Source: Agreia sp. PsM10 (GTDB lineage: Bacteria > Actinomycetota > Actinomycetes > Actinomycetales > Microbacteriaceae). From it: a stretch of 64,000 bases of DNA. Positions 43,055 to 53,535 of the stretch are shown here, piece by piece. The stretch is taken from assembly GCF_030433855.1 (NCBI RefSeq), contig NZ_JARUXC010000008.1:1-64000 (forward strand), in the 5' to 3' direction. A program made the position numbers and the translations under genes. Below the pieces are notes generated by a model. It saw only the letters and a program-made list of their open reading frames with translations. It was not told the origin of the DNA and ran no database searches. The first letter of the stretch is position 1. Each line of letters begins with the position of its first letter.

Positions 43055-43136
43055 GTTCGATCGTTCCCCTTGCCCGGCTGCTCGCCGGTTGTTGCGTGCT
43101 CGTCGATGAGCTCCCTCGAGACTAGTGGCCGAGCGC

Positions 43137-43197
43137 AATTCAGGAGGAGAGTGCGGCCGTGTGGATAGTGGCGTTGGCTGCGCTCTCCTCCTGAATT
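43137..43197. repeat. 61-bp palindromic element P1, copy A
   Basis: Ends AATTCAGGAGGAGAG and CTCTCCTCCTGAATT are exact inverses; the next seven positions pair with two G-T wobbles, leaving the loop core GTGGATAGTGGCG. Differs from copy B by four C/T changes. Lies upstream of both the uracil permease gene and the DUF559-like gene. Confidence 0.95.
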
Positions 43198-43272
43198 AGT
43201 CGCGGTCGACCGTTGTCCACAGAACCGCGGGATGCCGATGAGTGGGGCTGCCCGCTGGCGCACTCTCTCCGA

Positions 43273-44157
43273 ATGCAGAACTACCCCGTCGCCCCCCGAA
43301 GCCACCTGATAGCCCGAGGCATGTCGATTCGTCAGATCTCCGACGCGGTCGACGACGGTCGCATGATCCGTGTACGGCGGGGGTGGTACGCGTCGCCGGA
43401 TGCTCCTCCGCTCGTGGTGCAGGCCGTTCGCGTCGGCGGGTCGCTGACATCGTTCTCGGCCACGAGCCTGACCGGCATCTGGACGCCGCCAGGCATCCAG
43501 CTACACGTCGCCGTGCCTCGGAATGCGTCGAGGCTCCGATCGCCGCACGACGGTTCCCGGCAGTTGGATCGCCGTCGCGACCGAGTCTGCATCCACCCGC
43601 TGGACAGTGCGGGCGTCATTCGTGAACCCGTGCAAACCGTCGCGCAGGCGCTGGCTCACGCGGCGCTGTGCCAGACCGAGGAGATGGCCCTCACCGTGAT
43701 CGATTCGGCGCTCAACCTCGGTTTCGTATCGGAGCCGGAGCTTCGAGCGCAGTTCGAGAACCTCCCGCGCCGGTGCCGGCGTCTGCTCGATAAGGCCGAG
43801 CGGCGGAGCCAGTCGGGAATCGAGACGCTCGTCCGGGTTCGCCTGCGCAAGCTCGGAATCCATCTCACTGTGCAGGCGAAGATCTCCGGGGTCGGACACG
43901 TCGATCTGCTGATCGGCGATCGCTTCGTGATCAAGTGTGACAGCCACCGCTTCCACTGGCTCGAAGACCAGTACCGCGAAGACCACCGCCGCGACGCAGT
44001 GCTGGTGAGCATGGACTACGTCGTGTTTCGAGCGACGTACGAGATGGTGATGTTCGACTGGCCGTGGGTCGAGTCCATCGTGAGGCACGTGGTGGGTGCT
44101 CGAAAGCACATGTGGCCCCGTCGGCGCTCGGATGCAGTGGGCGAGCTTCTCGGCTGA
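43273..44157 (+). CDS. DUF559 / AbiEi-like protein with altered nuclease motif
   Basis: About 294 residues from ATG 43273; a TTG at 43213 could add 20. The N-terminal half (LIARGMSIRQISDAVDDGRMIRVRRGWYA) is the winged-helix region found in AbiEi-type antitoxin relatives. The C-terminal 110 residues have the Vsr-like endonuclease layout: SGIETLVRVRLRKLGI, GHVDLLIGDRFVIK and DSHRFHWLEDQYREDHRRD. The usual E-x-D-G of this family (as in VIEVDG) reads IKCDS, so catalysis may be lost. No AbiEii toxin partner is adjacent. Flanked on both sides by copies of the 61-bp palindrome. Confidence 0.78.
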   Translation: MQNYPVAPRSHLIARGMSIRQISDAVDDGRMIRVRRGWYASPDAPPLVVQAVRVGGSLTSFSATSLTGIWTPPGIQLHVAVPRNASRLRSPHDGSRQLDRRRDRVCIHPLDSAGVIREPVQTVAQALAHAALCQTEEMALTVIDSALNLGFVSEPELRAQFENLPRRCRRLLDKAERRSQSGIETLVRVRLRKLGIHLTVQAKISGVGHVDLLIGDRFVIKCDSHRFHWLEDQYREDHRRDAVLVSMDYVVFRATYEMVMFDWPWVESIVRHVVGARKHMWPRRRSDAVGELLG

Positions 44158-44164
44158 TGCGATC

Positions 44165-44225
44165 AATTCAGGAGGAGAGCGCGGCCGCGTGGATAGTGGC
44201 GTCGGCCGCGCTCTCCTCCTGAATT
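44165..44225. repeat. 61-bp palindromic element P1, copy B
   Basis: Same length and orientation as copy A. The arms pair perfectly over 22 bp; loop core GTGGATAGTGGCG. Begins 7 bp after the DUF559-like stop codon and ends 54 bp before the ABC1-kinase start, so it can serve as a terminator hairpin. Confidence 0.95.
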
Positions 44226-44254
44226 AGTGACGGGCACCGTGGCAGGATGGGCGC

Positions 44255-44287
44255 ATGACCGAGGCACAGGGGGCACCGCGTGGCTAA
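44255..44287 (+). CDS. possible 10-residue leader ORF
   Basis: ATG 44255 to TAA 44287 encodes MTEAQGAPRG and overlaps the GTG start of the ABC1-kinase gene by 8 bases in another frame. It may couple translation, or it may be chance. Confidence 0.3.
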   Translation: MTEAQGAPRG

Positions 44288-45941
44288 TCCGATCGCCGCA
44301 GCCGTCGGAACGCGGCTCGAACGCTACCGGGAGATCGCCAGCGTGCTGAGCAGGCACGGGCTCAGCTTCATCATCGGGGCCACCGGCCTCGAGCGCTTCG
44401 AGCCCGCCTGGCAGGAGCAGTCGCGGGCCAGCAATCCCGAGAATCTGCGGCGCGCACTCGAGGAGCTCGGCCCGACCTTCGTGAAGCTCGGCCAGCTGCT
44501 GTCGACGCGCTCCGACATCCTGCCGCCCGACTACCTGAACGAGCTGGCCAAGCTGCAGGACCGCGCACCGGCCGTGCCCGGCCCGGTGATCAAACGCCTC
44601 ATCGTCGACGAGCTCGGCGACCAGCCCGACAAGGTCTTCGCGAGCTTCCAGATCAAGCCGCTCGCCAGCGCCTCGATCGGGCAGGCGCACCTCGCCACGC
44701 TGCACGACGGAACGGAGGTCGTCGTCAAAGTGCAGCGGCCCGACATCGCCACGAACATCGCCATCGACCTCGAGATCCTGCACACGCTCGCCGTGCGGGC
44801 CTCCCGCCAGTGGAAGCTCGCGGCCGACTACAACATCACCGGCATCACCGACGAGTTCGCGCGCACACTGCGCGAGGAGCTCGACTACACGCATGAAGGC
44901 CGCAACGCCGAGACCTTCGCCGCCAACTTCGCGGGCGACGACACCATCCAGATCCCCCGCGTCTTCTGGGACACGAGCACCACGCGCGTGCTGACCCTCG
45001 AGCGCATCACGGGCCTCAAGGTCGACGACATCGCGGGCCTCGACGCCGCGGGGATCGACCGCCCCGGCATCATCACCCACGCCGTCGATGCCATCGCCCA
45101 GATGGTCTTCGTCGACGGGATCTTCCACGCCGACCCCCACCCCGGCAACCTCTTCGTCGAGCCGGACGGCCGCATCGGCCTGATCGACTTCGGCATGGTC
45201 GGGCAGATCGACGAGACCCTCCGCGGTCAGCTCGCCGATCTGTTCATGGCGCTGAGCAGGCACGATCCCGACCGCATGGCGTCGGCCCTCATCGCCCTGT
45301 CGAGTTCGAAGAAGTCGATCGATCAGGAGTCGCTGCGCGCCGACCTCGTGGGCTTCATCGACATCTACCGGGGCAAGGGCCTCGGCGAGGTCGACATGGG
45401 CGCGCTCATCAACAAGCTGCTCACCGTGCTCCGGCACAACCGGCTGCAGCTGCAGCCCTCCATCGTGATGTTGCTGCGCATGCTCCTCATGGTCGAGGGC
45501 ATGGGCGTGCTGCTCGATCCGACGTTCAGCCTGGGGGATGCTCTCAAGCCGTACGCGACGAAACTCGCGCTGTCGAAATTCTCACCGGCGGCGATCGCGA
45601 AGCGCCTGGCCGCGGCCGGGCTCGAGGCGGCTGAGCTCGGCATCGAGCTGCCCGACAAGATCCGCAAGGTGTTCGACGTGATCGACCGCAACGGCATCGA
45701 GGTGCACCTGCGCGCCTCCGAGCTCGACCCTCTGGTGGCGCGCGTCGAGAAGGTGGGCAACCGCGTGGTGGCCGGGGTGATCGCGGCCGCGTTCATCCGG
45801 GGCATCGGCGAGCTCGCCGTGAGCGACCGCAAGCGCTTCGGCAGCTGGAGCGGTCCGCTCATGGGAATCGGGCTGGGAGCGAGCGGCGCGCTGAGCGCCT
45901 ACATCGCGCTGACGTCGCGGCAGAGACGCCGCCGCAGCTGA
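44280..45941 (+). CDS. ABC1/UbiB-family atypical kinase (AarF)
   Basis: 553 residues. N-terminal KxGQ-type motif in PTFVKLGQLLSTRSDILP, an ALA-SIGQAH glycine-poor loop (ASASIGQAHLATL), VVVKVQRP with the ATP lysine, EEELDYTHEGRNAE, HADPHPGN catalytic loop and LIDFGMVGQ. The C-terminus has one or two transmembrane helices. Family members act in quinone or lipid metabolism. GTG start with AGGGGG 8 nt upstream. Downstream of palindrome copy B. Confidence 0.92.
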   Translation: MANPIAAAVGTRLERYREIASVLSRHGLSFIIGATGLERFEPAWQEQSRASNPENLRRALEELGPTFVKLGQLLSTRSDILPPDYLNELAKLQDRAPAVPGPVIKRLIVDELGDQPDKVFASFQIKPLASASIGQAHLATLHDGTEVVVKVQRPDIATNIAIDLEILHTLAVRASRQWKLAADYNITGITDEFARTLREELDYTHEGRNAETFAANFAGDDTIQIPRVFWDTSTTRVLTLERITGLKVDDIAGLDAAGIDRPGIITHAVDAIAQMVFVDGIFHADPHPGNLFVEPDGRIGLIDFGMVGQIDETLRGQLADLFMALSRHDPDRMASALIALSSSKKSIDQESLRADLVGFIDIYRGKGLGEVDMGALINKLLTVLRHNRLQLQPSIVMLLRMLLMVEGMGVLLDPTFSLGDALKPYATKLALSKFSPAAIAKRLAAAGLEAAELGIELPDKIRKVFDVIDRNGIEVHLRASELDPLVARVEKVGNRVVAGVIAAAFIRGIGELAVSDRKRFGSWSGPLMGIGLGASGALSAYIALTSRQRRRRS

Positions 45942-45974
45942 CGGCCGGCGAGTGCCCGCTCCGCGCGCCGCGAC

Positions 45975-46493
45975 TCAGGCCCCGGTGCGCTCCGCGACAC
46001 CGCGCACGAACGACGCCTGACCCGCGTGCTGCAGGTCGTCGGAGATCACGCTCACGAGCCGCGCCGCGAGGGTCACGGGCGGGTTCCACGAGGTGTCGAC
46101 GATGCGGGTGAAGTCGTCGTCGCCCAGCGCCGCCACGTAGTCGAGCGTGCGGGCGCAGACGGCGTCGTGATAGCCGATCAGATCGTCGGGGGCGACGCCG
46201 CGCACCTGCGCGACCTCGGCCGAGGACTGACCGTAGCCCGTGGCCGCGGCGTCGAAGGGCAGGCCGAAACGATCGTGCCAGCCGCCGTCGACCCAGAGCT
46301 CGTCGACCCCGGCGAGCTCGGAGACGTGCCCGTCCTGCACACGGGTGAGGTGCCACACCAGCCACGCCACCGTGTTGGCCTCGTCGTCGACGCGGAACGT
46401 GAGAACCTCCTCCGAGGCGCCGCCGACGGTGCGGCGCACGATCTGCTGGATTCTCTGGAAGGCGTCGGCGAGGGTGTCGGTGGTGGTCGTCAT
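45975..46493 (-). CDS. DinB-fold protein (DUF664/mycothiol-dependent type)
   Basis: 172 residues, a four-helix DinB/YfiT bundle. AWLVWHLTRVQDGHV carries one His, with GYHDAV and QHAGQASFVRG supplying the further metal-binding His residues, as in mycothiol-dependent maleylpyruvate isomerase relatives. ATG 46493 preferred; a TTG-type extension upstream looks unlikely. Convergent with the ABC1-kinase gene. Substrate unknown. Confidence 0.82.
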   Translation of the reverse strand: MTTTTDTLADAFQRIQQIVRRTVGGASEEVLTFRVDDEANTVAWLVWHLTRVQDGHVSELAGVDELWVDGGWHDRFGLPFDAAATGYGQSSAEVAQVRGVAPDDLIGYHDAVCARTLDYVAALGDDDFTRIVDTSWNPPVTLAARLVSVISDDLQHAGQASFVRGVAERTGA

Positions 46494-46593
46494 CTCTTCA
46501 GTCTTCTCCGTCGGGCAGGGGAGCGCCAGCACCTGAGGACCAATTTCGATAATGTGTCGGTATAGTCAATTCGACGGCAAGCGCGGGGGATCC

Positions 46594-47889
46594 ATGAGCA
46601 CCTATCTGATCTGCAGCACTCCGGTGCACGGCCACGCGTCGCCGATGGCGGTGATCGGGGCGCACCTCGTCTCGCGCGGACATCGGGTGATCATGCTCAC
46701 GGGAACGAGGTTCGCCGAGAAGATCGAGCGCGCGGGCATGGAGTTCGTGGCCCTCGAAGGCCGCGCGGACTTCGACGACCGGGATGTCGCCGGCTACCTG
46801 CCCGATCGCGAGCGGTACCGCGGTCTCGCCCAGGCGCAATACGACATCCAGAACATCTTCGTCAAGACAATTCCGGCTCAGGTCCGCTCGGTGCGGGCCG
46901 TGCTCGAACGCGAGCAGATCGACGCCATCCTGGTCGACGGCGCGTTCGGCGGCGTCTCGCCGCTGCTGGCCGATACGAGTGCCGATGGGCGGCGCCCGCC
47001 GATCCTCGCCGTGGGCGTGACCCCGCTCACCCAACTCAGTCGCGACACGGCGCCGGCCGGCCTCGGCATGGCGCCGTCGGCGACGCCGCTGGGCCGCATC
47101 CGCAATCGCACGCTGAACACGCTGGCCCGCCGGGTGCTCTTCCGCGATACCCAGCGCGCGGCCCAGGCGGCGTTCGCCGAGATCGGGGCTCCGAAGTCGG
47201 GGCTCTTCGTGATGGACATCTCGGGGGCCTTCGACCGTTTCCTGCAGCTCGGCCCGGCGACCCTCGAGTACCCCCGCGGCGACCTCACGCCGAACGTGCG
47301 CTTCGTCGGGGCGCTGCCGGCTGACGGCGGCGCCGCGCTGCCCGACTGGTGGGGCGACCTCGACGGATCGCGCCCCGTCGTGCACGTCACCCAGGGAACG
47401 ATCGACAATCACGACCTCGACCGCCTCATCAGGCCCACGATCACCGCCCTCGCCGACGACGACGTGCTGGTGGTGGTGTCGATGGGCGGCCGCCCCGCGG
47501 AGGGACTCGGCGAGGTTCCGGCCAACGTCCGCGTCGCCGACTACCTTCCCTACGACAGGCTGCTGCCGCTCATCGACGTCATCGTGACCAACGGCGGCTT
47601 CGGAGGGGTGCAGGCCGCGCTCGCCGCCGGCGTTCCCCTGGTCGTCGCGGGCGACACCGAAGACAAGCCCGAGGTCGCGGCCCGCGTCGGCTGGTCGGGG
47701 GCGGGCATCAATCTGCGCACCGGCACTCCGGCCCCGGATGCCGTGGGCTCGGCCGTGCGCGCCGTGCTGGCCGACGCGGGTTACCGTGCCCGGGCGCGAC
47801 GGTTCGCCGAGGAGCTGGCAGAGCTCGACACGCTCGCGATCGTCGACGAGGAGCTCGCCGCGGCGGTCGCCGGCTCGTCAGCGCGCTGA
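46594..47889 (+). CDS. UGT/MGT-type glycosyltransferase (GT1 family)
   Basis: 431 residues. N-terminal domain begins with the acceptor-site motif CSTPVHGHASPMAVIG; the C-terminal domain has LPLIDVIVTNGGFGGVQAAL and GVPLVVAGDTEDKPEVAARV, the nucleotide-sugar binding region of GT1 enzymes. The usual HGG of this motif reads NGG. Such enzymes glycosylate macrolides, carotenoids or lipids. GGGGGAT lies 5 nt before the ATG; a TATAGT at 46561-46566 may be the -10 box. Its 3' end overlaps the convergent membrane-protein gene by 12 bp. Confidence 0.88.
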   Translation: MSTYLICSTPVHGHASPMAVIGAHLVSRGHRVIMLTGTRFAEKIERAGMEFVALEGRADFDDRDVAGYLPDRERYRGLAQAQYDIQNIFVKTIPAQVRSVRAVLEREQIDAILVDGAFGGVSPLLADTSADGRRPPILAVGVTPLTQLSRDTAPAGLGMAPSATPLGRIRNRTLNTLARRVLFRDTQRAAQAAFAEIGAPKSGLFVMDISGAFDRFLQLGPATLEYPRGDLTPNVRFVGALPADGGAALPDWWGDLDGSRPVVHVTQGTIDNHDLDRLIRPTITALADDDVLVVVSMGGRPAEGLGEVPANVRVADYLPYDRLLPLIDVIVTNGGFGGVQAALAAGVPLVVAGDTEDKPEVAARVGWSGAGINLRTGTPAPDAVGSAVRAVLADAGYRARARRFAEELAELDTLAIVDEELAAAVAGSSAR

Positions 47890-48762
47890 GGCCGCCGCAT
47901 CCGGAGCCGTCGCAACCGTCGCAACCGACGAACCGGCCGTCTCCGGGCTGAACTCCACCCCGTTGTTCAGCACGAACACGAGCACGAGCCCCGCGGCGAC
48001 GAGACAGAGCAGCGCGGCGGTCGGCCGCCTGAACCGCAGGAACTCGTTGACCATGCGCACGGTTCCCTTGAACGGGTAGAACAGCGGGGCGAAGATGCCG
48101 GATGCCGCGACACCGATGAGCGTGTCGCTCACCATCTCGATGGGGTGGCTTCTCGTCGTGAACGTGAAGGTGAGCGCGTACACGAAGACGAGCACAGCGG
48201 TTCCCGCCGCCCAGGACCCGATTCCGAGGGAGCGCATCGAACTGACCGAGCCGTCGGCGTACGCGGTGACCCGCGTGGCGAAGAGGCGGGCGAGCAGCAC
48301 GGTTCCCGCGGCACCGACCGCGAAGCCGATCCAGTAGAGCGAGGTCGGGGCTCCGAACCAGAACAGCAGGGTCGCGGCGTCGCCCGCGCCCGTGAGGGGC
48401 GCCAGCAGCAGCGAGCTGAAGACGAGTTGAACGCTGATGAAGCCGAGCCAGGTGACGAAGAGGCGGGTGATCCCCGCTCCCCAGATGCGTGCGGCGAAGA
48501 TGAGCGCGAATCCGGTGACGAGGCTCGTGACCGCGGCGGCCGTCGACGTGAGGATGAGCGTCTGCGTCTGGGTGATGTCGAATTCGATGTAGCTCGGATA
48601 GAGCGTCGCCCGCGACTGCAGCGCGATCGCCGTCAGGAATCGGGCGAGCTCGTGCACCGTGATGGCGACGATGCCCGCGAGAACGAAGGCGACGGCGCCG
48701 TTGAACCAGAGAGTCGTGGACGGCGCCTGAGCATCGTCGGCCGCCGCTCGCGGAGTGCTCAC
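47878..48762 (-). CDS. polytopic membrane protein, M50-like remnant motif
   Basis: 294 residues with six to eight transmembrane segments. The first helix carries ITVHELARFLTAIALQS, resembling the HExxH helix of site-2/M50-type membrane proteins but lacking the second His, so a metalloprotease is unlikely to be active. GTG start in a GTGA overlap with the Lon-domain gene upstream. I do not recognise a named family. Confidence 0.75.
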   Translation of the reverse strand: MSTPRAAADDAQAPSTTLWFNGAVAFVLAGIVAITVHELARFLTAIALQSRATLYPSYIEFDITQTQTLILTSTAAAVTSLVTGFALIFAARIWGAGITRLFVTWLGFISVQLVFSSLLLAPLTGAGDAATLLFWFGAPTSLYWIGFAVGAAGTVLLARLFATRVTAYADGSVSSMRSLGIGSWAAGTAVLVFVYALTFTFTTRSHPIEMVSDTLIGVAASGIFAPLFYPFKGTVRMVNEFLRFRRPTAALLCLVAAGLVLVFVLNNGVEFSPETAGSSVATVATAPDAAASAR

Positions 48763-49430
48763 CGATCGTCCTCGAGCTCGTCTCCGGGCAGCGTGTCGGT
48801 GCTGTTCGGGCCGGGGCCGGCCGACCAGGCCGACGCGAACGACTCGGCCGCATCCGTCGCCCGTTCGAGAACGGTGGTGAGCAGTTCCTCCATCGAGATC
48901 GCCCCGAGGAACGCGAGCTGGTCGAGCTCGCCGACCGGCGCGATGCCCGCGAGCTGCCAGCAGGCCTCGAGCGGGTCGGTCGAGAGCTCGACGACGGATG
49001 CCCACCGCTGCTCGGTGAACTCGCTCGCCACCGCGAGGGCTCGGCGCACGGCCTGCTCGGTGTCGTCGCGCAGCGAGCGCAGCGACTCATCCCACTCGAG
49101 CGGCTCGAGGAAGCGGATCTGCGCCCGGGGGTACGGGTCGTCGTCGAGCCAGCCGACCACCTCGAAGCGCGAACCGCCCTCGGCGTTCACGGCCACGAAG
49201 CCCTCTCCGCCGGCCATCTCGGTGATGAGCGCGAGCGTGCCCAGCTGGAAACGGTGCTCGCCCCCGCCCACCTCCTGCCCTCGCTCGATCAGCACGACTC
49301 CGAACTGGGGCTGCTCGGCCTCGAGCATCTTCGCGAGCATCACGAGGTAGCGCTCCTCGAAGAGGCGCAGCGACACCGGCATGTAGGGGAAGAGAACCGT
49401 GCCGAGGGGGAACATGGGGATCTCGGGCAT
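48759..49430 (-). CDS. LON-substrate-binding-domain protein
   Basis: 223 residues. The N-terminal 190 residues are a LON N-domain: PMFPLGTVLFPYMPVSLRLFEERY at the start, then FGVVLIERG and GTLALITEM. There is no ATPase or protease part. Stand-alone LON domains are widespread in actinobacteria and of unknown function. Coupled to the downstream membrane-protein gene. Confidence 0.88.
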   Translation of the reverse strand: MPEIPMFPLGTVLFPYMPVSLRLFEERYLVMLAKMLEAEQPQFGVVLIERGQEVGGGEHRFQLGTLALITEMAGGEGFVAVNAEGGSRFEVVGWLDDDPYPRAQIRFLEPLEWDESLRSLRDDTEQAVRRALAVASEFTEQRWASVVELSTDPLEACWQLAGIAPVGELDQLAFLGAISMEELLTTVLERATDAAESFASAWSAGPGPNSTDTLPGDELEDDR

Positions 49431-49495
49431 GGCTCAAGACAAGCACGGTGCGCCGGGGTTGCCAATGGGATTGCGCCGGTTCTGCGGCGACCGGT

Positions 49496-50236
49496 TCAGG
49501 CGGGGCGCGATCCGGCGGGGCGCGATCCGGCGGAGCGTGATCCGGAGGAATACGGCGCGAGGACCTCGTCGAGCGACCGCTCGACCGTGTCGTCGGGAAT
49601 GAGTGCCCGGCCCTCGACCGATTGGATGTGCCGGTCGACGATGCCCTCGGCACGAGCGGCGTCGCCCGCCGCCATGGCCTCGAGCAGTTCCTCGTGCTCG
49701 CGCAGGCTGTCTGCCTGTGGATGCGCGGCGCCGTAGACGGCCAGGATGAGGGTGCTGCGGCCCACGATCTCGTTGATGTGGCGCAGCAGCAGCCGGTTCC
49801 CTGTGAGCTCGGCGAGAAGGATGTGGAACTCGGCGCCCAGCCTGACCGACAGCTTGTGGTCGGCGTCGGCGGATGCGCGGGCCTCGGCCTCGATGTGCGC
49901 CCGGATGGGCTCGGCGTACGACGGCGACCAGCTGTCGGCCAGCAGCGCGACGGTCGCCCGTTCGAGAGCGCGGCGCACGGTGAACACCTCGCGGGCCTCG
50001 TCGCGGCCGGGGTGCGCCACCCGCGCCGACTTGGTCTTGCCCACCTCGACGAGACCCTCCGCCGCGAGTCGCGCAAGAGCTGCCCGCACGATGGTCCGGC
50101 TGGCGCCGAAGCTCTTGCCGAGGGCGTCTTCGGGCAGCTTCGTCTCCGGTGCGAGTGCGCTCTCCATGATCGCTTCGCGCAGGGCGAGGTAGATGCCGTC
50201 GCCGCGGGAGACCGGCACGTCGGAGGAGTCGCTCAT
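49496..50236 (-). CDS. GntR family regulator (FCD domain)
   Basis: 246 residues. Winged helix at the N-terminus (LREAIMESALAPETKLPEDALGKSFGASRTIVRAAL), FCD ligand domain with metal-binding residues (HILLAELTGNRLLLRH). The C-terminus ends in a 15-nt-repeat-encoded tail SGSRS-AGSRP-AGSRPA (49506-49550). Divergent from the DUF1989 gene, with two palindromes between, so it controls that cluster and itself. Confidence 0.9.
   Translation of the reverse strand: MSDSSDVPVSRGDGIYLALREAIMESALAPETKLPEDALGKSFGASRTIVRAALARLAAEGLVEVGKTKSARVAHPGRDEAREVFTVRRALERATVALLADSWSPSYAEPIRAHIEAEARASADADHKLSVRLGAEFHILLAELTGNRLLLRHINEIVGRSTLILAVYGAAHPQADSLREHEELLEAMAAGDAARAEGIVDRHIQSVEGRALIPDDTVERSLDEVLAPYSSGSRSAGSRPAGSRPA
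49506..49550 (-). repeat. three 15-nt tandem units in the GntR gene
   Basis: Units CGCGATCCGGCGGGG and two near-copies start at 49506, 49521 and 49536 and encode the final AGSRP-type pentapeptides of the regulator. Confidence 0.88.
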
Positions 50237-50264
50237 GGGTCAATCGTAATCGCCCGACCGGAGT

Positions 50265-50278
50265 TTACGTACTCGTAA
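50265..50278. promoter_or_regulatory. inverted repeat TTACG-TACT-CGTAA
   Basis: Perfect 5-4-5 repeat, 29 bp upstream of the GntR start codon, in the divergent promoter region. Confidence 0.5.
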
Positions 50279-50286
50279 CATGGTCA

Positions 50287-50300
50287 TTCGGTATACCGAA
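50287..50300. promoter_or_regulatory. probable GntR operator TTCGGTATACCGAA
   Basis: Perfect 14-bp palindrome with a GTATAC core, midway between the divergent GntR and DUF1989 genes. FCD-type GntR proteins commonly bind short palindromes with a GTATAC-like centre. Confidence 0.7.
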
Positions 50301-50351
50301 ACATAGCGGTGTGCATACTTAACCATTCGAACCGCTTGACCAGGAGACGAC

Positions 50352-51482
50352 ATGACCACCACGACGACCGCGACCGCGATGCGTCTCACCCGCCAGCAGC
50401 GCGAGCTCATCGCCCGGTCGGTCGCCGACGGGGAGGCCGCCGACCAGACTGCGCTCCTGCGGCGAGCCGTGCTCGAGACGGCGACGGGGTCGATCGCCCG
50501 CCTGCCGATGCCGGCCACCAGTCGACGCGAGAGCGCGTGGCGTGAATCGCTGCTCGACGGGTCGGCGATCGCCCCGGGGGCCGAGCGCGTTCTGCTCGAG
50601 GAGTTCGTGCTCGAGCCCGGCACCGGGAAGGCGATCGAACTGCGCGCCGGCGAGATCCTGCGCCTCGAGCAGATCGAGGGATCGCAGTGCCTCGACTTCA
50701 ACGCCTTCAGCCTCGACGACTACCGCGAGGCCTTCCACTGCGGACGTACCCGCACGCTGCACGGAATCAACCCCACGACCGGAGACTTCCTCTGGTCGGC
50801 TCCGCCGCGCGAGCGGGCGATGCTCTTCATCCTGAGCGACAGCGTGCACTGCAACGATGTGCTCTTCCCCCGGTGCAGCGCCAACATGTACGAGTCGGTG
50901 CACGGCTTCCGCGAGCACACCAACTGCGCCGACATCCAGGCCGAGGCGCAGCGCGAGTACGGGCTCACGCCCGACGACGTGCACGACTCGTTCAACATCT
51001 TCATGGCGACCGAGGTGGTCGACGGGCAGCAGCGCATCCGCAGGCAGGACACCGCCCCGGGCGACCACATCGAGCTGCTCGCCGTTATGGATGTTCTGGC
51101 CGTGCCGAACATCTGCGGCTCCGACGTGCAGCCGACCAGTAACTTCTCGCTGAAGCCGGTGCGAGTGCAGAGGTTCCGCGCATCCATCGCCGACCTCGAC
51201 GCCGTGCCGACCATCTACGAATACGACTCGCAGCGCACACCGAGCCAGTTCGCGCAGCCCGCCATCCGAAACGAGCGGCGCCTGACCCGCGACCCGCAGT
51301 ACCGTCCCGCGTTCGAGGGGCTGCCGATCGGCGTCGAAGTGGAGCAGATCGAGCTCGACGAGGAGACGGCCGCGGCCTTCGACGAGCTGTGGCGAGGCGG
51401 GCTCTCGGCCCGCTACGCCGAGCGGGGCGACGGCCTGCGCGACGTGCTGTTCTCGTGGTGGATGGCGTCCCATGAGCGCTGA
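50352..51482 (+). CDS. DUF1989 (urea-carboxylase-associated) family protein
   Basis: 376 residues. DUF1989 core from about 95 to 280: AGEILRLEQIEGSQCLDFNAF, SAPPRERAMLFILSDSVHCND, HTNCADIQAE and DHIELLAVMDVLAVPNICGSD, with the metal-like Cys/His residues. In guanidine users, paired DUF1989 proteins deiminate carboxyguanidine; here there is a single, longer protein and no carboxylase gene. AGGAG precedes the ATG. Overlaps the flavin reductase gene by 11 bp. Confidence 0.85.
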   Translation: MTTTTTATAMRLTRQQRELIARSVADGEAADQTALLRRAVLETATGSIARLPMPATSRRESAWRESLLDGSAIAPGAERVLLEEFVLEPGTGKAIELRAGEILRLEQIEGSQCLDFNAFSLDDYREAFHCGRTRTLHGINPTTGDFLWSAPPRERAMLFILSDSVHCNDVLFPRCSANMYESVHGFREHTNCADIQAEAQREYGLTPDDVHDSFNIFMATEVVDGQQRIRRQDTAPGDHIELLAVMDVLAVPNICGSDVQPTSNFSLKPVRVQRFRASIADLDAVPTIYEYDSQRTPSQFAQPAIRNERRLTRDPQYRPAFEGLPIGVEVEQIELDEETAAAFDELWRGGLSARYAERGDGLRDVLFSWWMASHER

Positions 51483-52149
51483 TCTCACGGATGCCGCGCT
51501 CGGCCCCGCGCGGCACGTCGACACTGCGCAGGACATCGACTTCGAGACGCTGGGCGAGTACGAGCGCTACAAGCTGATGGCGAGCCTGATCGTGCCCCGG
51601 CCGATCGCCCTCGTGACCACGCTCGACGAGGGCGGGGTCGTGAATGCCGCGCCCTTCAGCATGTTCTGCATGCTCGGCGAGGAGCCCCCGCTGCTGCTCG
51701 TCAGCCTCAATCGGCTCGCCGGGGGAGCGCAGAAGGACACCGCCCGCAACATCGATCGCACGGGCGAGTTCGTGGTGCACATGGTCGACGAACCGCTCGC
51801 CGAGGCAGCCGACCGCTGCGGGGAGCGTATGCCCGCGGGCGTCAGCGAGCTCGACGCCGTGGGCCTGGCCGGCGTGCCGTCGCGCCTCGTCGGCCCGCCC
51901 ACCATCGCCGCGGCGCCCGTCGCCTTCGAATGCGTGCTGCACGAGAAGCTCGACACCGCGAGCCGCGAGATCTTCATCGGCCGCATCGTGTCGCTGCACA
52001 CCCGCGACCAGCTGATCGACACGGATGCCTGGCGCGTGCACCTGCACGACTACGCCCCCGTCGCCCGATTCGGCGCCAGCTTCTACACGACCACCCGCGA
52101 CCGCTTCGCGATCGGAGCCCGGGAGACGGCGATCGACACCCTCGCCTGA
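51472..52149 (+). CDS. flavin reductase family protein
   Basis: 225 residues of the FMN-binding split barrel (DIM6/NTAB type): LMASLIVPRPIALVTTLDE, NAAPFSMFCMLGEEPPLLL and the KDTARNI segment. Such proteins supply reduced flavin to a monooxygenase or are flavin enzymes themselves. Second gene of the GntR-controlled cluster. No monooxygenase gene is in the cluster. Confidence 0.88.
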   Translation: MSADLTDAALGPARHVDTAQDIDFETLGEYERYKLMASLIVPRPIALVTTLDEGGVVNAAPFSMFCMLGEEPPLLLVSLNRLAGGAQKDTARNIDRTGEFVVHMVDEPLAEAADRCGERMPAGVSELDAVGLAGVPSRLVGPPTIAAAPVAFECVLHEKLDTASREIFIGRIVSLHTRDQLIDTDAWRVHLHDYAPVARFGASFYTTTRDRFAIGARETAIDTLA

Positions 52150-52255
52150 GGCCGATCGCTCGTCACACACGACGTCACTCCACCGACAGCACCATCGACC
52201 GTTCCGCCAGACCGCACCACACCACCCCTGCGCACCATCCACCTCGAGGAGAATC

Positions 52256-53455
52256 ATGTCCAGCACGCTCCGCTCCACCCGCTCCCGGCGGCTCGGCCGC
52301 ACGGTCGCCACGTCGGCCTCCGCGCTCGCGCTCGTCGCCACCCTGGCCGCCTGCTCGACCGGCTCATCCGCCGATTCCGAGCCCACGGCATCCGTCGACC
52401 TGCCCATCGGCGCCGTCGACCTGGCCGCGGCCGGCTGCCCGGCGAATGTGGTCATCCAGACCGACTGGAACCCCGAGGCCGAGCAGGGCAACCTGTACCA
52501 GCTGATCGGGCCGGATGCCACGATCGACGCAGCGAAGAAGGCGGTCTCGGGCCCCCTGTTCGCGAGCGGCGAGTACACCGGAGTGAACGTCGAGGTGCGC
52601 TCGGGAGGGCCGGCCATCGGCTTCCAGACGGTGACCAGCCAGCAGTACACCGACACCGACATCACCCTCGGTTATGCCAACACCGACGAGGCCGTGCAGC
52701 TGAGCGACGAGATGCCGACCACGGCCGTGTTCGCGCCGTTCGAGGTGGGACCGCAGATCATCATGTGGGACCCCGCGACCTACCCCGACGTGAAGACGAT
52801 CGAAGACCTCGGCAAGACCGACGCGTTCGTGCGCTACTTCGGCGGCGCCGCCTACATGGAGTACCTGATGGGCAGCGGCATCCTGCCCGCCTCGCACGTC
52901 GACGGCGGCTACGACGGCACCCCCGCGAGCTTCATCGCGGCGGGCGGAAAGGATGCCCAGCAGGGCTTCGCGACCGTCGAGCCCTACGTCTACGAGAACG
53001 AGATCGCCGACTGGGGCAAGCCGGTCGCGTTCCAGCTCATCCACGACGCGGGCTACCCGATCTACGCCTCCGCGCTCTCGGTGCGCACCGGCGACCTCGA
53101 GGAGCTCTCGCCGTGCCTCACCGCGCTGGTGCCCGTGATCCAGCAGGCGACGGTCGACTACTACGCCGACCCGGCCGCCACCAACGAGCTCATCCTGAAC
53201 GCCGTCGCCGAGTTCGACAACGGCTGGGTCTACACGCCGGGTGTGGCCGACTACTCGGTGAAGGCGCAGGTCGAGCTGGGACTCGTGGGCAACGGATCCG
53301 ACGACACCGTGGGCAACTTCGACGTCGATCGCGTGCAGAAGATCATCGACATCACGACGCCGCTGTTCGAGAAGCTCGGAACGCCTCCGGCCGACGGACT
53401 CACGCCCGACCAGATCGTGACGAACGAGTTCATCGATCCCTCGATCGGCTTCTGA
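52256..53455 (+). CDS. NMT1/THI5-type ABC substrate-binding lipoprotein
   Basis: 399 residues. Lipoprotein signal ending in TLAAC, then an NMT1/taurine-type fold (VIQTDWNPEAEQGNLYQLIG, FEVGPQIIMWDP, AFQLIHDAGYPIYASALSV). No permease or ATPase gene adjoins it, so its transporter is elsewhere or it binds for a shared system. GAGGA 6 nt before ATG 52256. Third gene of the GntR cluster; the ligand may be the nitrogen compound handled by the DUF1989 protein. Confidence 0.87.
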   Translation: MSSTLRSTRSRRLGRTVATSASALALVATLAACSTGSSADSEPTASVDLPIGAVDLAAAGCPANVVIQTDWNPEAEQGNLYQLIGPDATIDAAKKAVSGPLFASGEYTGVNVEVRSGGPAIGFQTVTSQQYTDTDITLGYANTDEAVQLSDEMPTTAVFAPFEVGPQIIMWDPATYPDVKTIEDLGKTDAFVRYFGGAAYMEYLMGSGILPASHVDGGYDGTPASFIAAGGKDAQQGFATVEPYVYENEIADWGKPVAFQLIHDAGYPIYASALSVRTGDLEELSPCLTALVPVIQQATVDYYADPAATNELILNAVAEFDNGWVYTPGVADYSVKAQVELGLVGNGSDDTVGNFDVDRVQKIIDITTPLFEKLGTPPADGLTPDQIVTNEFIDPSIGF

Positions 53456-53474
53456 TCCGGGTCGTGCCGTAACG

Positions 53475-53535
53475 AATTCAGGAGGAGCGCGTGGCCGCCG
53501 CCACTATCCACGCGGTGGAGCGCTCCTCCTGAATT
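53475..53535. repeat. 61-bp palindromic element P1, copy C (reverse orientation)
   Basis: Same length and ends; its reverse complement carries the same loop core CGTGGATAGTGGCG. The inner stem is more diverged. It lies between the binding-protein stop and the convergent ATPase stop, as a bidirectional terminator would. Confidence 0.93.

Follow-up and report, generated by a model that had tools for sequence, protein, structure and literature searches.

The subject of this report is a 64,000-nucleotide stretch of Agreia sp. PsM10 (contig NZ_JARUXC010000008.1, positions 1 to 64,000; hereafter the window), in which a 61-bp palindrome occurs three times, two of the copies enclosing a gene for a protein with an AbiEi-like winged helix and a Vsr-like nuclease domain. 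With a probability of roughly 0.6, the palindrome is the recognition site of a dimeric nuclease encoded between these two copies, the whole forming an element like the REPtrons, in which repetitive extragenic palindromes (REP) accompany a REP-associated tyrosine transposase (RAYT), but with an enzyme unrelated to RAYT. That the predicted nuclease would bind and cut the palindrome, and that the element would move, is inferred. The features concerned are as follows.

43137-43197, + strand: palindrome A, flanking the nuclease gene on its left, read from the letters; conserved unit about 43130-43204
43213-44157, + strand: gene for a protein in which an AbiEi-like winged helix is joined to a nuclease of the MTES_1575/DUF559 (Vsr-like) type; open reading frame with profile matches
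44165-44225, + strand: palindrome B, flanking the nuclease gene on its right, read from the letters; conserved unit about 44158-44232
53475-53535, - strand: palindrome C, solitary, between two convergent genes, read from the letters; also present in Agreia sp. Leaf283

It is proposed that the palindromes would act as double-stranded sites recognised by the product of the gene that A and B enclose, a dimer spanning each site so that its winged helices contact the outer arms and its nuclease domains the centre. The fixed length of the dyad would then be explained, because a dimer so arranged would need one. The unit of A, gene and B would represent the complete form of the element, and solitary copies could arise via loss of the gene or through spread by cutting and gene conversion.

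The palindromes and the enclosed gene

As the initial annotation had described, A, B and C are all 61 bp long with fixed ends (AATTCAGG), and their 13-bp arms (AATTCAGGAGGAG/CTCCTCCTGAATT) are identical. A and B differ at four positions, all of them C/T, and C is inverted relative to both, as judged by its centre; its orthologue in Leaf283 lies at contig 1:1220067. Symmetry and conserved bases extend beyond the arms, giving a conserved unit of about 75 bp in total. No Rfam family scored above its gathering score in the window or in three 20-kb stretches of Leaf283. The conserved loop that had also been claimed, GTGGATAGTGGCG, is not general: its core GTGGAT occurs in 18 of 19 Leaf283 sites and in none of the 20 sites of another Agreia genome (G006), which has centres of the GCCACWGTGGC/GCCATAGTGGC type. 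Because of this split, sites within one genome seem to change together. At 43155-43175 and 44183-44203 the centre reads TGTGGATAG/CGTGGATAG, which is similar to a DnaA box; the likeness is probably fortuitous, since the G006 copies lack TGTGGATAG/CGTGGATAG.

The enclosed gene is listed with a TTG start, an ATG at 43273 being likelier by alignment. Its product matches the AbiEi profile of PADLOC (E 8e-7) and Pfam MTES_1575 (E 1.3e-5; 25.6 bits, below the Pfam cut-off of 38.2), and itself stays below the AbiEi_4 cut-off. Among 20 aligned homologs at E <= 0.01, MTES_1575 was recovered in all 20, DUF559 in 18 and AbiEi_4 in 15; these were the only Pfam domains, with no transposase domain and no Y1 (HuH) tyrosine transposase among them. 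A search for a transposase or RAYT gene spreading with the palindromes had been suggested, a useful hint: an accompanying gene is indeed present between A and B, its enzyme being a Vsr-like nuclease and not a RAYT. PMC3710099 gives MTES_1575 as a Vsr-family nuclease domain. NCBIfam yielded no family for the window protein, and only E 0.15, taken as chance, for the related protein of genome G158. Against solved structures, the family profile matches 3hrl (E 5.9e-6) and 3r3p, a 'mobile intron protein' (E 0.0012), which we presume to be I-Bth0305I. Catalytic-type residues are kept in the homologs; residue 241 is K in the window copy and E in at least 90% of homologs, including that of Leaf283. 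A single-sequence AlphaFold model reached a mean pLDDT of 34 and was not used.

Bracketing of related genes by private palindromes

The same gene lies between two palindrome copies in three Agreia genomes, namely the window's own (G000), Leaf283 (G002) and G006. Bracketing by like palindromes recurs in four genera besides Agreia, here termed g85 (G158, G297 and G257, the last being Microterricola pindariensis), g86, g75 and g26. In G158 a 41%-identical gene stands between two copies with a core length of 54 instead of 53, and G257 and G297 carry the gene with 54-bp palindrome pairs. The G158 locus differs from that of Leaf283, because it is syntenic to Leaf283 at about 480 kb and not at 1,210 kb. 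Two palindrome copies are found on each side of the gene in G094 (g86), and one per side in Gryllotalpicola ginsengisoli (G083, g75) and G239 (g26).

Twelve further paralogs were fetched by coordinates before their flanks were seen. Paired private palindromes with a strict paired score of at least 38 were present at 6 of these 12 and at 11 of 18 loci overall, versus 1 of 424 control genes, which were genes of Leaf283. Flank similarity exceeded the 95th percentile of controls at 9 of the 12 and at 16 of 23 loci overall; at 5 of the 23 it also exceeded the 99th. Other repeats gave some of the controls very high scores. Many of the paralogs have palindromes with different arms (CGGGCGGAG, CTTGTAC, ACGGGAGGAGAT, TTCAGGCA), and with such arms as CTTGTAC or CGGGCGGAG in the same gene family the earlier interpretation of the arms as a Shine-Dalgarno/anti-Shine-Dalgarno pair is not supported. 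For arms picked by eye, the more alike two proteins are, the more alike their arms (Mantel r 0.60 with the winged helix, p 0.0002; r 0.48, p 0.0038 in a reduced set). By these comparisons, many of the related nuclease genes stand between copies of a palindrome private to them.

Flanking repeats, partly recognised by eye, also accompany plasmid loci of Tsukamurella (three) and Actinomyces (one), and two of the four pass the 95th percentile. Related genes on plasmids carry the annotation 'AbiEi family'. On the Actinomyces oris plasmid (L297), a short hairpin repeat GTGTCCGATTTGGACAC was seen by eye on both sides of the related gene, at about 1200-1240 and 2340-2380.

Double-stranded site or folded hairpin

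The initial annotation had taken a kept structure and a drifting stem to suggest that the folded form of the palindrome is recognised. This was not borne out by 21 Agreia copies, in which the arms, CC at 21-22, GG at 40-41 and the symmetric centre are kept and the inner columns vary. Since the copies were picked by exact 11-bp arms, the invariance of the arms partly reflects selection; one-sided arm mutations are present among copies found by a sequence-only model. Over the full-length stem, 80.5% of cells pair versus 79.0% in shuffled sets (24 of 500 shuffles reach 80.5%), and nine pairs are altered on both sides, compared with 8.9 in shuffles. The covariance test gave a score of 0.106 versus 0.090 after shuffling, a value reached by 34 of 500 shuffles, and columns 14, 16, 17 and 24-28 are unpaired in 9-14 of the 21 copies. 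In g86, for which 12 of 13 copies were used, mirror agreement was near or below expectation, with 1 of 26 positions at p 0.019. An RNA hairpin with covariation was thus rejected for Agreia and g86, where pairing and covariation lie near shuffles, while g85 shows some mirror covariation, as detailed below. Because arms, length and centre are held while the inner pairs do not covary, the palindrome is read as a dyad double-stranded DNA site for a protein, presumably kept by sequence and not by fold.

Dispersed copies, a second family and allelic forms

That the window's palindromes have further copies, as had been expected, was confirmed in its own genome: the exact-arm pattern occurs 9 times, and 13 times at <=2 mismatches, with none in the reversed controls. 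Exact-arm copies were found in 5 of 60 relatives, every one of the genus Agreia. A 53-bp core pattern gave 23 stretches in a genome collection of 257 billion bases, which may leave out records close to the window's own genome; these came from Agreia, Gryllotalpicola, Leifsonia, Microterricola and Subtercola, all of them Microbacteriaceae by taxonomy. With the sequence-only model at E <= 0.001, matches occurred in 6 of 8 Agreia genomes and in 24 of 299 genomes of the family, several of the weak ones looking like chance. A census at <=2 mismatches matched 91 of 398 genomes, the reversed control also yielding single matches.

Distinct sites of this first family number 13, 19 and 20 in the three Agreia genomes with the bracketed gene (G000, Leaf283 and G006), and 7, 5, 3, 0 and 0 in the five without it (Agreia sp. 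Leaf210 or G003, Agreia bicolorata or G007, G004, G001 and G005); strands were merged by hand from the sequence-only model, and a few G006 and G007 sites are partial. With gene positions from a crude gene caller, 13 of the 19 Leaf283 sites overlap no predicted gene, three touch a gene by 1-2 bp, two reach 37 and 44 bp into predicted 5' ends, and the remaining one falls within a predicted 5' part. The neighbouring genes are convergent at 7 sites, divergent at 5 and co-directional or unclear at 7. For 8 of the 19, one or more of the other Agreia genomes have a palindrome at the corresponding position, with flanks 73-98% identical, one or two others giving no resolved comparison. Another dispersed hairpin repeat, GTTCCCTGAGC-TTGTCGAAGGG plus its complement, was observed in contig 1 of Leaf283, where it occupies places at which G006 has the 61-bp palindrome (387648 and 364422).

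A second family, CGGGAGGAGAT-N37-ATCTCCTCCCG, was found at <=3 mismatches in 8 of 8 Agreia genomes and in 0 of 3 g85 genomes, with no control matches; its copies from G000 to G007 number 8, 15, 14, 4, 5, 16, 8 and 8. By coordinates, it brackets its own paralog in Leaf283 (C3:254615-255454), G005 (C24:20153-20992) and G006 (1064885-1065706), and it stands about 100 bp from a paralog in G001, G003 and G007.

In the window, the nuclease gene lies between a Xan_ur_permease gene and an ABC1/UbiB-type kinase gene, and no AbiEii (DUF1814) toxin gene is adjacent. Several allelic forms of this locus exist in Agreia. In G003 and G004 a single palindrome precedes the UbiB-type gene on its upstream side, and the nuclease gene is absent; in G007 the permease side is joined directly to the UbiB side, with neither palindrome nor nuclease gene; and G001 has a possible remnant. 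The G005 match is a 61%-identical copy lacking the permease side and was not used for this comparison.

Weighing of the proposed element

Several observations weigh against the proposed element. The allele comparison revealed no clear target-site duplication, nor did that of G006 with Leaf283 sites, in which the G006 sites are no simple insertions. Activity is not needed for the sites to persist in G000 and G006, because the bracketed gene of G006 (C1:2872454-2873360) is apparently split over two frames, its palindromes being intact, and the window copy lacks the conserved E. Relatives are nearly absent from mobile DNA: 72,556 plasmid records yielded 4 at E <= 1e-8 and 50,697 phage records yielded 1 at E <= 1e-3, and viral contigs gave 1 and 59 pattern stretches, none of them confirmed as relatives. 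Some paralogs, such as G093 649895, have no paired palindrome in either test. Matches at E<=1e-10 include no bracketed gene in G093 (11 sites) or in Leifsonia sp. Root4 (G210; 4 sites at <=3 mismatches), and Subtercola boreus (G230) has sites far from its three gene matches at that threshold. Against the reading as a double-stranded site, mirror agreement in 27 g85 copies, a set that mixes two arm subtypes and includes related copies, was above that of shuffles (p 0.001-0.037) at 7 of 26 positions, namely 4, 7, 13, 14, 15, 17 and 18 (p 0.034, 0.001, 0.001, 0.011, 0.022, 0.005 and 0.037, respectively). It may also be that the protein does not spread by cutting and conversion and simply acts as a nuclease bound to DNA, the palindromes being its accessory sites.

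Among the other explanations, the one that survives best, though unlikely, is that the palindromes are operators, the winged-helix protein repressing its own gene via the upstream palindrome and other genes via dispersed copies, with the nuclease incidental. AbiEi autoregulates through inverted repeats of the right size (PMC7319586), and the five Leaf283 sites between divergent genes would suit such a role. However, the bracketed loci also carry a palindrome downstream of the gene, an operator would be pointless at the seven sites between convergent genes, and the homologs keep their catalytic-type residues.

Still less probable are chromosome-organising sites of the origin (oriC) region, like parS or ram, used by the nuclease gene by chance. 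Four genomes that consist of one main contig have their first-family sites nearer to dnaA, on average, than a uniform spread would place them: 409 versus 843 kb in G006 (20 sites, p 2e-5), with p 0.02 in G093 (11 sites), 0.039 in G158 (9 sites) and 0.011 in G297 (6 sites). With close sites merged, p becomes 7e-5 in G006, 0.022 in G093, 0.077 in G158 and 0.026 in G297. Nevertheless, the g85 site lists used here are not exhaustive and include sites more than 1 Mb from dnaA, two Agreia genomes have no first-family sites, and the second family is unclustered in G006 (878 versus 843 kb), a result after which the idea of a pure oriC marker was rated lower. GC skew was too weak to use. In Leaf283, contig 1 carries the first-family sites and contig 4 carries dnaA; the genome fits the clustering only if contig 1 is chimeric at 905 kb. 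The public 1.95-Mb contig probably is, because it has five N between 904,684 and 905,049, stretches of 121 and 128 bp that are 99% identical to the beginning of the contig with dnaA, and a break of synteny with G006 at the junction of about 905 kb. This N-rich, duplicated junction spans 904684-905177 (L126).

Bidirectional transcription terminators that spread as convenient hairpins are the least probable of all: the very stable predicted stems, the seven Leaf283 sites between convergent genes and the intergenic spot at G006 387648, which in Leaf283 holds an unrelated hairpin of similar length, speak for them, but they sit poorly with the five sites between divergent genes, the fixed core length and an inner stem that does not covary, and leave the bracketing of one gene family unexplained.

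Relation to known systems

The recognition site of a nuclease encoded between two of its copies, the reading preferred here, has a close parallel in the REP/RAYT system. As described in the literature (PMC3116915, PMC3733652), REPtrons have like palindromic repeats by a single-copy enzyme gene, dispersed extragenic copies, and repeat flavours each with its own enzyme gene; repeats that both flank the enzyme gene and are dispersed are common to the Agreia palindromes. The REP/RAYT enzyme, in contrast, is a Y1 tyrosine transposase instead of a Vsr-like nuclease with a winged helix, and REP repeats are 20-40 bp long and tagged GTAG or CGTC, whereas those of Agreia are 61-75 bp, of fixed length and with AATTCAGG ends. 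Recognition of a folded strand, moreover, has left no sign here. The arrangement resembles REPtrons, but the enzyme and tag of RAYT systems are not found. The bracketing of many related genes by other palindromes of their own suggests an unrecognised family of elements, each made up of a nuclease and its target sites.

A related nuclease domain belongs to the EDxHD homing endonuclease I-Bth0305I, if this enzyme is, as we assume, the structure matched by the Agreia family. The target of such an enzyme is a long site in alleles without the gene, and G003 and G004 have a gene-less allele with one palindrome. Unlike EDxHD homing endonucleases, the Agreia protein has an N-terminal AbiEi-type winged helix, and its gene lies outside an intron, flanked by two presumed sites and not interrupting one. 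I-Bth0305I is reported to dimerise on nearly 60 bp (PMC3943268), similar to the size of the Agreia palindrome.

The AbiE type IV toxin-antitoxin system shares the AbiEi-like N-terminus and inverted repeats of similar overall size: AbiEi binds a pair of 23-bp inverted repeats separated by 3 bp, and in Rv2827c, with 13 bp between the repeats, the total is 59 bp (PMC7319586). The Agreia protein differs in its C-terminal nuclease, in having no AbiEii neighbour, and in palindromes that stand on both sides of the gene and are dispersed. As to an insertion sequence or miniature inverted-repeat transposable element, no transposase domain was among the Pfam matches; empty and one-copy alleles are seen, with no clear target-site duplication. 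No description of such bracketing was found in the openly searchable literature on DUF559 and MTES_1575, most subscription papers lying outside it, and the same partial literature held nothing relevant on origin-proximal or dispersed palindromes.

Implications for the gene family

More tentatively, the actinobacterial genes filed as 'AbiEi family antitoxin' or DUF559 may represent a distinct class of selfish element, each with a private pair of dyad sites of about 60 bp that the protein is predicted to bind and cut; solitary copies would be seeded from it and kept alike by cutting and conversion, with site and protein co-evolving. The GTGGAT split between Leaf283 and G006 is as expected of sites that change together. 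One puzzle is that the first palindrome family crowds near the replication origin, whereas the second is unclustered in one and the same genome. For a gene family now classed as an antitoxin or a domain of unknown function, the palindromes supply many members with a predicted DNA target legible in the genome sequence itself, which makes the function testable. If the proposal is true, it would be a second, independent invention of the arrangement of a palindrome plus a dedicated enzyme, with long and diverse target sites.

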